From an uncultured Dysosmobacter sp. (GTDB lineage: Bacteria > Bacillota > Clostridia > Oscillospirales > Oscillospiraceae), in NCBI GenBank assembly GCA_934565855.1, contig CAKTIO010000004.1, positions 62,001 through 126,000 of the forward strand: a stretch of 64,000 bases of DNA, read 5' to 3'. Numbering within the stretch: position 1 is the stretch's first letter; each line of letters starts with the position of its first letter. The translations under genes and the position numbers were made by a program. This document shows, one piece after another, positions 17,208 through 53,524 of the stretch. The notes below the pieces were generated by a model. The model was not told the DNA's origin. It did no database searches and saw only the letters and a program-made list of their open reading frames with translations.

Positions 17208-17981
17208 TCAGGAGCCGCACTCCATTGAGATCTGGTTGAATACGGCGAGGATATCGTCGATAGAGGTCTGCCGCTTTTCCTCTCCTGCCTTGTCCAAAAT
17301 GACATGCCCCTGATTCATCATAAGGATGCGGTCGCCGTATTCCACGGCGTGGCGGAGGTTATGGGTGACCATCATGGCAGTCAGGTGCTTTTCCCGCACG
17401 ACCTTGTTGGTCAGCTGCATGATGATCTCCGCTGTTTTGGGGTCCAGCGCGGCGGTATGTTCGTCCAGAATCAGGAATTGCAGGGGTGTCAGCGTTGCCA
17501 TTACCAGCGCCACAGCCTGTCGCTGTCCGCCGGAGAGACTGCCCATCTTGACCTCCAGCTTATCCTCCAGTCCCAGACCCAGTCCGGCAAGCTCCGAGCG
17601 GTAGAAGTCGATGCGCTTTTTGTTTACGCCACGGGTAAGGTTGAAGGGCTTGCCCTTATTGTCCGCCAGAGAGAGGTTTTCCAGCATAGTCAGGTTGGGG
17701 CAGGTTCCCAAAGCGGTGTTCTGATACACCCGCCCCATCGTGGCGTAGCGCTGATAATCCTTCAGGCGGGAGATGCTCTTGCCGCCGATGAGAACGTCGC
17801 CGCCCTCCAGAGGGATGGAGCCGCAGATAATGTTCAGAAGAGAGGTCTTGCCGGAGCCGTTGCTGCCCACAATGGCAACAAACTGTTCATCGGGAACGGT
17901 CAGGGAGAAATGCTCAAACAGCCGGGTCTCCGTCACCGTGCCGGGATTATAAATTTTTGTAATATCTCGTACTTCAAGCAT
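17208..17981 (-). CDS. ABC importer ATPase, TrpXYZ-type system 1
   Basis: A 257-residue nucleotide-binding subunit. Walker A is GSNGSGKT (39-46), the signature is LSGGQ (149-153) and Walker B is FLILDEH (169-175). It overlaps the permease gene by 8 bp and is the last gene of an operon (binding protein, permease, ATPase) controlled by a tryptophan T-box at 20163-20438. This family is predicted in other Firmicutes to import tryptophan (TrpXYZ). The leader supports that role here. Direct proof is lacking. Confidence 0.94.
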   Translation of the reverse strand: MLEVRDITKIYNPGTVTETRLFEHFSLTVPDEQFVAIVGSNGSGKTSLLNIICGSIPLEGGDVLIGGKSISRLKDYQRYATMGRVYQNTALGTCPNLTMLENLSLADNKGKPFNLTRGVNKKRIDFYRSELAGLGLGLEDKLEVKMGSLSGGQRQAVALVMATLTPLQFLILDEHTAALDPKTAEIIMQLTNKVVREKHLTAMMVTHNLRHAVEYGDRILMMNQGHVILDKAGEEKRQTSIDDILAVFNQISMECGS

Positions 17982-18858
17982 GGATGATCTCCTCTCCTTT
18001 CCGTCCGGAAAAGACCAGAACCAGCAGGAACAGTACCGCAGTGACCAGCTTCAGAAGATTGGCAGGCAGTCCCGCGGAGATCGCCACCTGAATGCAGACC
18101 TTATACAGCACACTGCCTGCCATCACGGCGGTGGTTCCCTTGACAAAGCTGACCTTCCGGAACAGGCTGATGCCGATGATCACGGCGGCAAGTCCAAATA
18201 CCACCTGTCCGGTACCCATCGTGGCGGAGAAGCTGCGCTGCTCCTGACAGACGATGGAACCAGCCAGCGCCACCAGCGCGTTGGAGATCATCAGCCCCAG
18301 GATCTTTACATTGCCCATGTCCTTGGCAAGGGAGGTGACCAGCGTGGAATTGTCGCCCACAGCCCGCAGCAGCAGACCGGATTTGGTGCGGAAATACAGG
18401 TCCAGCAGCAGCTTGATGACCAGAATGACCACCAGAGACACCACCAGCTTCCGGTACATCAGGTTCAGCCCGCCCAGCAGCGACATGGTGGGCGGTGCGG
18501 TGAAGATGGTGTTGATCGAGCGCTCCACCGTCAGGTTGGATCCTGCAATCTGCAGATTGATGGAGAACAGGGCGGTCTGGGTGATGATACCTGCCAGCAG
18601 GTTGCGGACGTGCAGCTTAACATGGATCATGCCAGTGGCAAGCCCAGCCAGCGCGCCCACGCCAATGGCAGCCAACAGCGTCAGGTAGGGATCTGTTCCC
18701 CGGACCAGCAGCACCGCGGTGACAGCTGCGCCCAGAGGAAAGCTGCCGTCCACGGACAGGTCGGGAAAGTCCAGAATGGTGTAGGTGATATAAACGCCGA
18801 AAGCGATCAGCGCGTAAATCAGTCCCTGCAGCAGGGTACTGACAGCGAGTTCCAGCAT
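17974..18858 (-). CDS. ABC importer permease, TrpXYZ-type system 1
   Basis: A 294-residue permease with about eight or nine hydrophobic segments, of the branched-chain-like 'uncharacterized transport system' family (LDFPDLSVDGSFPLGAAV near residue 30). It works with the ATPase gene it overlaps and the lipoprotein gene upstream. Tryptophan is the likely substrate, judging from the Trp T-box. A paralogue lies at 21338-22312. Confidence 0.93.
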   Translation of the reverse strand: MLELAVSTLLQGLIYALIAFGVYITYTILDFPDLSVDGSFPLGAAVTAVLLVRGTDPYLTLLAAIGVGALAGLATGMIHVKLHVRNLLAGIITQTALFSINLQIAGSNLTVERSINTIFTAPPTMSLLGGLNLMYRKLVVSLVVILVIKLLLDLYFRTKSGLLLRAVGDNSTLVTSLAKDMGNVKILGLMISNALVALAGSIVCQEQRSFSATMGTGQVVFGLAAVIIGISLFRKVSFVKGTTAVMAGSVLYKVCIQVAISAGLPANLLKLVTAVLFLLVLVFSGRKGEEIIHA

Positions 18859-19000: not shown

Positions 19001-20026
19001 TCAGGCTTCCGCAGACTCAATCGCCTTTTCAGCGATGGCGCTGGGGAGGGTGATATTCATTGCGCTCAGTGCATCGGAGTTCACATAGATGCCGTATTCG
19101 GAGATGGTCTCATAGGCGATGTCATCGCAGGTCTTTTCGCCGCGGAAGATCTGTGCCGCCATCAGACCGGTCTGGATGCCCAGCTGCACATAGTCGATAC
19201 CGGCGGAAGCGACGCAGCCCAGCTTCACCTGCTCGACCTCAGAGCCGTACACCGGGATACCGGCTTCGTTGGTCTTTTCCAGAATAGAGGACAGAACGCC
19301 CACCACGTTGTTGTCGGTCAGGTTGGAGATGCAGTCCACCTTGTCGGCAATCAGGCTGTCTGCCGCCTGCGTCACCTCAGACTGCGCGGTCACGCCGATG
19401 GCATCAATGGTGAAGCCGTAGTCCGCGGACTTCTCCTTGTACTCCTCAATGGCGGAGACGGAGTTGGGTTCAGAGGTGGTGTAGATGATGCCGATGGTCT
19501 TGGCTTCCGGCTGAAGCTGGCGGATCAGGTCCATCTGTGCCTCAACCGGCAGCTTGTCAGAGGTGCCGGTGATGTTTCCGGCAGTGAGGTTGGCAGCTTC
19601 CGGATCGGTCACAGCGGTGAAGACTACGGGAATGTCCTTATCCTCTGCGGCGGAGTAGCAGGCGATGGCAGAGGGGGTGGCGATGCCCACCATCAGCGCG
19701 GCATTCTCTGCGGAGAAGCTCTGGGCGATCTGAGTGTCGATGGAGTCATCAAATCCGGCGTTCTGATAGTCCAGCTGATAGTCGGTGCCCTCTACCAGAC
19801 CAGCCTGCTCCAGACCCTGGAGGAAGCCCTCCCGGCAGTTGTCCAGAGAGGCATGCTCACCGTACTGGGCGATTCCGATGATGGGCAGAGCGCCCTTGGT
19901 GGAGGAATCCGCAGGAGCGGAAGCAGCGGCAGAGCCGGAAGCGGAACCGGAGGAGCCGCAGGCAGCGAGAGAAGCGGTCAGGGACAGAGCCAGAGCGGCG
20001 GTCATCATTTTCTTCAGAGTTTTCAT
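19001..20026 (-). CDS. ABC importer substrate-binding lipoprotein, TrpX type
   Basis: A 341-residue lipoprotein with signal peptide and lipobox LAAC (Cys22), followed by a Ser/Ala-rich linker. The mature part has the ABC_sub_bind fold pattern (IGIAQYGEHASLD, then NITGTSDKLPVEAQ). That family usually sits with the permease and ATPase types found here. It is the first gene after the Trp T-box. The 142-base gap to the permease gene shows no strong terminator. Confidence 0.94.
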   Translation of the reverse strand: MKTLKKMMTAALALSLTASLAACGSSGSASGSAAASAPADSSTKGALPIIGIAQYGEHASLDNCREGFLQGLEQAGLVEGTDYQLDYQNAGFDDSIDTQIAQSFSAENAALMVGIATPSAIACYSAAEDKDIPVVFTAVTDPEAANLTAGNITGTSDKLPVEAQMDLIRQLQPEAKTIGIIYTTSEPNSVSAIEEYKEKSADYGFTIDAIGVTAQSEVTQAADSLIADKVDCISNLTDNNVVGVLSSILEKTNEAGIPVYGSEVEQVKLGCVASAGIDYVQLGIQTGLMAAQIFRGEKTCDDIAYETISEYGIYVNSDALSAMNITLPSAIAEKAIESAEA

Positions 20027-52677: not shown

Positions 52678-52709
52678 TAAAAAAACCCGCAGCCGGTTTG
52701 GCTGCGGGT
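52678..52709 (-). terminator. Attenuator terminator of the aromatic operon
   Basis: A perfect 10-bp stem (52700-52709 with 52685-52694) with a 5-base loop, followed on the minus strand by seven T. Its 5' arm and loop (52693-52704) are perfectly complementary over 12 bases to 52762-52773 inside the leader-peptide gene. Confidence 0.95.
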
Positions 52710-52744
52710 CATCGGTCCTTTTCAGGTATCTGATAACTCTTTCT

Positions 52745-52843
52745 TCAAGCGCAGACGCTTTCAGCCAAACCGGAATAAGCCTTACCATAAAAGTAGGTAA
52801 AGCTAAAGTAGCGGTATTCAGCTGCGAAAGCGAAAGTCATCAT
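52745..52843 (-). CDS. Phe/Tyr leader peptide (32 aa) of the aromatic operon
   Basis: A 32-codon frame with AGGAGT upstream of ATGATG, about 32 bases after an extended -10 promoter. Ten codons are Phe (4, 6, 13, 15, 18) or Tyr (10, 12, 17, 19, 23). Codons 24-28 contain CCGGTTTGGCTG, the exact complement of the terminator 5' arm. An early segment, CGCTTTCGCAGC (codons 4-8), can pair with GCTGAAAGCG (codons 27-30), apart from a 2-base bulge. These are the four segments of a classical amino-acid attenuator. Stalling at Phe/Tyr codons frees the antiterminator. I do not know this peptide as a described family. Confidence 0.9.
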   Translation of the reverse strand: MMTFAFAAEYRYFSFTYFYGKAYSGLAESVCA

Positions 52844-52881
52844 GAAAGATACTCCTGTAGATCAATTCTTTAGATGTTTAA

Positions 52882-52890
52882 AGCATAACA
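52882..52890 (-). promoter_or_regulatory. Extended -10 promoter of the aromatic operon
   Basis: The minus strand reads TGTTATGCT (TGN plus TATGCT), starting transcription about 32 bases before the leader ATG. No good -35 is visible at normal spacing, as is usual for extended -10 promoters. Confidence 0.65.
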
Positions 52891-52975: not shown

Positions 52976-53524
52976 TCAAAGTGCCTCCGGCAGCAGCGTT
53001 GCCATCAGCATTTGATTCGCCGTTAAAATATAGGTGGCGTCCCGGTGCCAGCTGGAGGTGGACTCCACATACTGCCTGTGCAGCTCGGAAATGGCGCTGC
53101 ACAGGTCCTCCCGTGCTTTGGTGCGGCGGATGTTGCGCGCCTTCAGATAGCGGATGAAGTGCTCCCGAAGAGCGTCCTCGTAGCGGCGGTGGGCGGCGAT
53201 GCTGTCCGTATATGTATCGTTGTGGGGAAAGGTGAAGGCATCCGCCAGATAATGGGTCAGCTTGCCCAACGTGTAATACTGCCAGACTGTCCAGCGTTCC
53301 CGGCGCTGCAGGCGCAGGATGTGCTGGTCGATGTAGTGCTGAGAGTTGGAGAAGTTGTGTCCCATGAATTTTTTACCGTGGATGGAACCCTTTAAATAGG
53401 AGAGAGGATTACAGTCCGGCTGGAAGGAACCCAACAGAAAGGCGAGTTCAAAGCGGCGTTTGTGAAATCCGTTATAACTGTCCATCAGGGTGTGAGCTAA
53501 AAGCTTGTGACTTCTTTTTTGCAA
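52976..53524 (-). CDS. Zinc-dependent phospholipase C-like protein
   Basis: A 182-residue all-helical protein of the zinc-dependent phospholipase C/S1-P1 fold. Metal-ligand-like residues appear in LLGSFQPDCNP, GHNFSNSQHY and GKLTHYLADAFTFPHN. There is no signal peptide, so it would act in the cytoplasm, unlike secreted phospholipases C. It stands alone between the aromatic operon and a divergent CoA-transferase gene. The actual substrate is unknown. Confidence 0.85.
   Translation of the reverse strand: MQKRSHKLLAHTLMDSYNGFHKRRFELAFLLGSFQPDCNPLSYLKGSIHGKKFMGHNFSNSQHYIDQHILRLQRRERWTVWQYYTLGKLTHYLADAFTFPHNDTYTDSIAAHRRYEDALREHFIRYLKARNIRRTKAREDLCSAISELHRQYVESTSSWHRDATYILTANQMLMATLLPEAL

Follow-up and report, generated by a model that had tools for sequence, protein, structure and literature searches.

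The window, i.e. the whole 64,000-nucleotide stretch of DNA that was analysed, carries on its minus strand an operon of seven genes for aromatic amino acid synthesis, assigned from NCBIfam matches of differing strength:

52643-51630, minus strand: aroF, DAHP synthase of the B. subtilis type (TIGR01361 and PRK08673, above cut-off)
51613-50768, minus strand: tyrA, prephenate dehydrogenase (best NCBIfam matches, below the equivalog cut-offs)
50728-49652, minus strand: aroB, 3-dehydroquinate synthase (TIGR01357, above cut-off)
49674-48421, minus strand: aroA, EPSP synthase (TIGR01356, marginally above cut-off)
48431-47340, minus strand: aroC, chorismate synthase (PRK05382 and TIGR00033, above cut-off)
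47313-46177, minus strand: pheA, chorismate mutase / prephenate dehydratase (best NCBIfam matches, below cut-offs)
46173-44929, minus strand: aroE-aroK fusion, shikimate dehydrogenase / shikimate kinase (one NCBIfam match for each half, below cut-offs)
44481-44448, minus strand: strong terminator-like site behind the operon (15 pairs)

No intergenic gap exceeds about 40 bases, and some of the genes overlap. From this gene order, the leader in front of aroF likely controls the whole operon aroF-tyrA-aroB-aroA-aroC-pheA-aroEK. A terminator and promoter scan also found weaker terminator-like sites and two promoter-like sites inside the operon (2.5 promoter-like sites were expected, counting both strands), and because of these internal sites control of all seven genes is something that we infer. 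A zinc-dependent phospholipase C-like gene (52976-53524, minus strand) lies directly 5' of the leader.

A short Phe/Tyr-rich frame precedes aroF

A preliminary description of this DNA had placed a 32-codon frame with ten Phe/Tyr codons between an extended -10 and a strong terminator in front of aroF. All of these elements were located on the minus strand, together with the pairing segments of the leader RNA:

52890-52882, minus strand: extended -10 TGTTATGCT, which fits TGNTATNNT and is conserved in close relatives
52856-52852, minus strand: Shine-Dalgarno sequence AGGAG of the leader frame, 8 nt 5' of the first ATG
52843-52745, minus strand: leader peptide frame of 32 codons, 10 of them Phe/Tyr (open reading frame and translation)
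52824-52812, minus strand: segment 1 (protector) CAGCTGAATACCG, which pairs with segment 2 in the computed fold
52804-52778, minus strand: inner hairpin AGCTTTACC / GGTAAGGCT, 9 pairs, formed by Ser-Phe-Thr and Gly-Lys-Ala codons
52773-52762, minus strand: segment 2 (antiterminator strand) CCGGTTTGGCTG, within the leader frame
52710-52684, minus strand: intrinsic terminator hairpin (segments 3 and 4), 11 pairs, 5-nt loop, T tract
52704-52693, minus strand: segment 3 CAGCCAAACCGG, the 5' arm and loop of the terminator
52685-52679, minus strand: T tract of the terminator (from the sequence)

The leader frame translates to MMTFAFAAEYRYFSFTYFYGKAYSGLAESVCA, and its transcript is expected to start near 52875. 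We compared the window with 18 relatives that we selected as close (19 sequences in all). A match to TGNTATNNT lies no more than 90 nt 5' of the leader ATG in 18 of the 19, the window included (3.5% of shuffles), and in 17 of the 19 it stands 41-50 nt from that ATG. The Shine-Dalgarno sequence is likewise found in 18 of the 19, again including the window (9.8% of shuffles). A simple sigma-70 scan called no promoter at the leader, so the promoter call depends on the conserved extended -10. The preliminary description had raised the alternative of a transcription start downstream of 52745; none was found, and the conserved extended -10 is predicted to act upstream of the frame. Sequence and conservation thus point to a translatable short frame with a Shine-Dalgarno sequence 3' of a promoter, as is expected of an attenuator.

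We looked for such frames in a scan of species genomes that confirmed 586 aroF relatives, of which the best 80 were kept and, with the window, gave 81 upstream regions. By their labels the best 80 belong to Oscillibacter, Dysosmobacter, further Clostridia and a small number of other phyla; many come from metagenome assemblies, so that these labels may be wrong. Defining a Phe/Tyr run as a frame, no more than 300 nt upstream, in which 6 or more of 10 codons are Phe/Tyr, we found one in 60 of the 81 regions, against 1.2% of 1620 shuffles, none of the 81 reverse complements and about 0.5% of 2998 stretches taken from elsewhere in these loci; the remaining 21 regions had no run at this threshold. 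In 50 leaders the in-frame share of Phe/Tyr over the 54 nt before segment 2 was 0.433 of codons, compared with 0.085 and 0.160 in the other two frames, a comparison in which the in-frame count is favoured because the leaders were chosen for their run. (These 50 are the 59 loci with a terminator described below, less 7 with a duplex p above 0.15 and 2 in which no leader was found.) Phe/Tyr codons are dense from 16 to 6 codons before segment 2, fall to near zero at positions -4 and -3, and return at -2 and -1. Trp is nearly absent: the 82 distinct aroF leader cores, each of which has at least 7 Phe/Tyr in 14 codons, contain it twice among 1148 residues. The frame therefore holds a conserved in-frame run of codons for end products of the operon, another property expected of an attenuator.

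The frame might instead encode a small protein with a function of its own, the terminator ending the transcript of that protein and aroF having its own promoter. This would fit the long peptide motif AEYRYFSFTYFYGKAYFGLAE that the close relatives have in common. However, the motif dissolves in distant loci, where leaders retain runs such as YYFYF and the complementarity to the terminator persists; the conserved residues after the run coincide with RNA stems; and three leader peptides searched against Pfam and NCBIfam gave no match. We consider a small protein highly improbable.

A second conserved leader-like peptide, of the TTRFTSFGYPRYFMAW type and with spaced Phe/Tyr codons, was seen upstream of aroF at five loci (L307, L310, L311, L313 and L325), four of which fall under the 6-in-10 threshold. 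It could represent a further branch of this system.

The leader RNA has mutually exclusive folds, with terminator and antiterminator conserved by compensation

Segment 2 was claimed in the preliminary description to be the exact complement of the terminator 5' arm and loop. This was verified, CCGGTTTGGCTG (52762-52773) being the exact complement of CAGCCAAACCGG (52693-52704), and none of 300 shuffles gave an equally good duplex (z -5.4). The minimum-energy fold of the leader (z -5.5; 0 of 200 shuffles equally good) holds the 1:2 helix, the inner hairpin, which sits between segments 1 and 2, and the terminator. An intrinsic terminator stands ahead of the first gene of the operon, as attenuation demands. 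The 1:2 helix consists of 11 pairs around a 2-nt bulge; its pair probability without a ribosome is 0.85-0.88, with lower values as long as the terminator 3' arm lacks 6-10 nt. Pairing 1:2 excludes 2:3, and 2:3 excludes 3:4.

A terminator-like hairpin was found in 64 of the 81 aroF upstream regions, at -13 kcal/mol or lower in 59 of them. Of these 59 loci, 38 have a duplex of the 2:3 type that is better than shuffles at p<0.05, and 16 have one that is better at p<0.01, even though the sequences of segments 2 and 3 diverge widely (e.g. GGATAATTTGTG with CACAGGTTATCC). We then exchanged upstream regions and terminator arms among 40 more distant loci, re-optimising every duplex on both sides; none of 5000 permutations equalled the true pairing (-742 against -550, sd 17).

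In an alignment of the 19 close sequences (A1), two-sided changes occur at 8 pairs of the off state, namely 5 of the 11 terminator pairs, 2 of 1:2 and 1 of the inner hairpin, and at 4 pairs of the on state, 3 of them in 2:3 and 1 in the inner hairpin. Neither number was reached in 500 shuffles, and sliding the partners by 1-3 columns lowered the paired cells from 91% and 94% to 22-59%; one of five measures for the off state, further pair types, was not above shuffles. The search for a covarying antiterminator that the preliminary description had suggested was therefore positive, with three two-sided 2:3 pairs in addition to the exchange result, and the alternative pairing is conserved by compensation, as it should be in an attenuator. 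The earlier sequestering segment of that description can now be placed, at 52824-52812 in the leader fold, but the 1:2 helix that it forms has little covariation support and is the least conserved helix in the 19 close sequences: its outer part is paired in 78% of cells, and 4 of the 8 pairs of this part vary solely by loss of the pair. Compared with synonymous recodings, 31 of the 50 leaders fold better at p<0.05 (mean z -2.0), the window's own leader being borderline (z -1.8, p 0.055). Taken together, the conservation of frame, codons and compensated pairing across relatives supports the reading of a Phe/Tyr attenuator.

The stem of the inner hairpin (52804-52778) is nearly invariant in the close sequences, beyond what the switch itself needs, and 94% of its cells are paired across the 19; our guess is that it could be a pause hairpin. 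An RNA structure conserved to this degree, and beyond the peptide, is also what would be seen if the hairpins bound a metabolite or a protein (i.e. a riboswitch or protein-dependent attenuator) and the short frame were incidental. Against this, Phe/Tyr codons are kept in frame while nucleotides change, alignment gaps 5' of segment 2 in the 19 sequences have lengths divisible by three, and the peptide signature of the inner hairpin is lost, as judged by eye, in more distant leaders. Furthermore, no family of Rfam release 15 matches this leader at its gathering score, the best of six weaker matches having an E value of 0.07. Such a binding element appears very unlikely to us.

Modelling a ribosome on the leader

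We modelled the folding of the leader with a ribosome masking the RNA, assuming a footprint of 13 nt upstream and 16 nt downstream of the P site. Without a ribosome, the model predicted that 1:2 forms first (0.85), that 2:3 prevails as long as the terminator 3' arm lacks 7-10 nt, and that the terminator together with 1:2 prevails once the arm is complete. With the ribosome at codons 2-20 and 7 nt of the arm absent, the predicted antiterminator probability was at least 0.91. When 4 nt were absent it was 0.88-1.00 at codons 2-11 and 0.26-0.85 at codons 12-17, with almost none at codons 18-20. A ribosome at codons 21-32 left almost no antiterminator in the model, and one at the stop codon gave 0.83 with 7 nt absent and 0.09 with 4. 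With a complete stem the terminator was predicted at 0.62 or more at every ribosome position. As the completed terminator is always the more stable structure in the model, the choice between on and off must be kinetic.

A ribosome stalled early in the run covers segment 1, and one stalled late in the run lies past it. With the assumed footprint, the geometry that attenuation requires (a stall that hides segment 1 and frees segment 2) is thus obtained for the first part of the run, and not for codons 18-20 in the later state.

The sequence evidence and the model together lead us to propose, with a probability of roughly nine in ten, that ribosome-mediated transcription attenuation takes place in the leader, with charged tRNA-Phe and tRNA-Tyr as the sensed signals and the aroF-tyrA-aroB-aroA-aroC-pheA-aroEK operon as the target. 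Its predicted function would be as follows. When Phe or Tyr is scarce, the ribosome would stall within the run; a stall in the first part of the run (about codons 10-15) would cover segment 1, and segment 2 would then pair with segment 3 as this emerges, so that no terminator forms and the operon is transcribed. When both amino acids are ample, the ribosome would proceed over segment 2 and the terminator would form. It would form as well if the leader were not translated, in this case because 1:2 pairs. The choice between the folds would be set by timing.

Leaders of this kind are widespread in the order of Oscillibacter valericigenes

A covariance model (R1) was run on 295 genomes sampled evenly across the order of Oscillibacter valericigenes and gave matches at E values of 1e-4 or lower in 59 of them. 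Of the 62 matches 61 were examined (the one omitted belongs to a pair of overlapping matches on opposite strands): 49 precede aroF, 3 precede tyrA and 9 precede neither. At E values up to 2.2e-7 there are 45 matches, 43 at aroF, 2 at tyrA and none elsewhere. Five secondary weak matches in single genomes were fetched, and the two of them that were examined both resemble terminators behind genes.

A separate sample came from a DAHP synthase search, positive in 95 of 147 genomes, likewise sampled evenly across the order, and giving 121 matches among those listed. Taking the best-scoring 90 of these 121, which biases the sample towards closer relatives, we found a Phe/Tyr run in 57 aroF regions and none in the other 33. 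A terminator was detected in 47 of the 57 run-positive regions (10 had none) and the duplex was significant in 25 at p<0.05 and in 9 at p<0.01; among the 33 run-negative regions the corresponding numbers were 13, 5 and 3. With 60 of 81 and 57 of 90 regions positive, the search of relatives proposed in the preliminary description found both the short frame and its Phe/Tyr codons conserved.

Two T-box leaders were observed elsewhere in the window. One (60527-60282, minus strand) lies ahead of an asparagine synthase gene (60315-58621), and T-box and leader-peptide control therefore apparently coexist in one genome. The other (20431-20186, minus strand) lies ahead of genes for an ABC transporter substrate-binding protein (19001-20026) and permease (17974-18858). 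In addition, an Rfam search of 20 of the 33 run-negative regions gave one T-box, at locus L351, where it stands upstream of the DAHP synthase gene in place of the Phe/Tyr leader peptide.

These cases are the grounds for asking whether a T-box riboswitch, sensing uncharged tRNA directly, acts at the leader itself. We give this next to no probability, since the T-box model RF00230 has no match at the leader, either at the gathering score or at E values up to 10, and an Rfam search of 20 of the 57 run-positive aroF regions returned nothing, T-boxes included.

Leaders at tyrA are rich in Tyr codons

Four leaders precede tyrA, three found with R1 (L114, L116 and L138) and one among tyrA upstream regions (L235). 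Tyr makes up 0.62, 0.88, 1.00 and 0.86 of their Phe+Tyr codons respectively, i.e. three are nearly pure Tyr. In the 82 aroF leader cores the mean Tyr share is 0.46 and two cores reach 0.8; the difference is significant (one-sided Mann-Whitney p = 0.001), for four tyrA cases only, which may not be independent. All four have a terminator-like hairpin, and the antiterminator duplex is significant at p<0.05 in one (p 0.29, 0.06, 0.03 and 0.11). One genome (G146) has both kinds of leader, a mixed Phe/Tyr one at aroF (L102) and a nearly pure Tyr one of the same folded shape at tyrA (L116).

The 6-in-10 threshold was reached in 2 of 50 tyrA upstream regions, L217 (the same leader as L116) and L235; at L218 (the same as L138) a leader is present and was skipped by the frame-length limit of the scan. 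Leaders at tyrA are rare. We rejected the idea that detached tyrA genes usually have them, as none of the 20 tyrA genes located apart from pheA in their assembly has a Phe/Tyr run; of the 50 regions, 14 have no long open frame immediately upstream, and leaders were found in 3 of these 14.

At pheA, none of 40 upstream regions (mostly from the less similar of the matches listed) had even a 5-in-10 Phe/Tyr run. An open frame of more than 150 codons lies upstream in 39 of these 40, and pheA is therefore mostly inside operons, which makes this a weak test for pheA leaders. No Phe-only leader was found.

Similar leaders in a second phylum

In the Lentisphaeria order to which locus L071 belongs, a related DAHP synthase is encoded in 36 of 47 genomes. 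Upstream sequence longer than 100 nt was present at 28 of 30 loci; a Phe/Tyr run was found at 18 of the 28 and is missing from the four least similar loci (50-53% identity). Trp occurs in 5 of 14 distinct leader cores here; in the Oscillibacter order it occurs in 1 of 51.

A terminator was detected at 5 of these 18 Phe/Tyr leaders, and the duplex was significant in 2. The low number of terminators would be in keeping with the same sensor controlling translation or Rho-dependent termination instead of intrinsic termination. We regard this as extremely unlikely for the leader studied here, because aroF is preceded by a terminator in the window as well as in 47 of the 57 run-positive regions of the Oscillibacter order.

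At three loci of the Lentisphaeria order (L370, L371 and L380), all without a detected terminator, the leader-like frame ahead of aroF contains Trp codons along with those for Phe and Tyr, as would suit a sensor of all three end products.

The family of attenuators is apparently broader than the preliminary description supposed. Rather tentatively, and at somewhat below even odds, we suggest that it is one old and spreading family of aromatic leader peptides, which would be the chief regulator of aroF in the present order of gut Clostridia, would reach the Lentisphaerota, and would occasionally duplicate to a new target and retune its codons (a Phe/Tyr mixture at aroF, almost exclusively Tyr at detached tyrA genes, and Phe/Tyr with some Trp in the Lentisphaerota).

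Discussion

The trp, pheA and his leaders are the classical amino acid attenuators of proteobacteria. Like the leader as predicted here, they have regulatory codons in a leader peptide, the alternative pairings 1:2, 2:3 and 3:4, and an intrinsic terminator. The present leader differs from them in that segment 2 lies inside the leader frame, in that Phe and Tyr codons are mixed, and in its position before aroF, which opens the common pathway and is followed by six more genes. The Rfam model Trp_leader (RF00513) gives it a score of 13 bits, where 41 are needed.

Firmicutes were said in the preliminary description to rely mostly on T-boxes or TRAP for this kind of control. That view needs qualifying, as ribosome-sensed attenuation has already been reported in the phylum: His leader peptides are predicted in bacilli (PMC2965389), and a leucine-rich attenuator of the Staphylococcus aureus ilv operon is described with experiments (PMC5794164). 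Both represent the same type of attenuation, for other amino acids and other genes. Another leader RNA of a Firmicute, Leu/phe leader RF01743, is tied by its name to Leu and Phe and is listed for Lactococcus lactis only in PMC2864571; its model does not match the leader in the window.

Closer still are two proposals at shikimate genes, with which our leader can be compared by their descriptions. The uORFC-13-1 motif, described from 24 examples upstream of aroF in Acholeplasma and environmental sequences (PMC8632094), likewise combines a short upstream frame with a terminator before aroF, and its Phe codon or codons (at least one) are the proposed sensor; the description gives Acholeplasma and environmental sequences as its only sources. 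A study of five genomes lists, in the legend to its Fig. 6b, two candidate upstream frames with Phe and Tyr at shikimate genes (PMC6429828), as found here. Of the other sources, PMC2494555 and PMC1262725 deal with T-boxes and actinobacterial leaders, and the main text of PMC11109978, which covers 50 genomes, does not mention phenylalanine or DAHP. No description of the Phe/Tyr leader family was found in the titles or abstract openings of the literature listed, subscription papers lying outside its scope. The type of switch is therefore already known, in Firmicutes too, and Phe/Tyr upstream frames at shikimate genes have been proposed before. The preliminary description was not aware of an account of this peptide; no Rfam family matches the leader, and Phe/Tyr or Phe upstream frames were proposed in the two studies of shikimate genes. 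As a family, the Phe/Tyr attenuators are apparently undescribed, a conclusion that is provisional.

The leader is a short gene of a kind that annotation could easily overlook. Its natural series of relatives, in which the codons vary with the target gene, would let codon-specific sensing be tested directly. The candidate also strengthens the case for ribosome-sensed attenuation in Firmicutes alongside T-boxes, and it gives abundant, little studied gut bacteria a concrete candidate for the control of aromatic amino acid synthesis.
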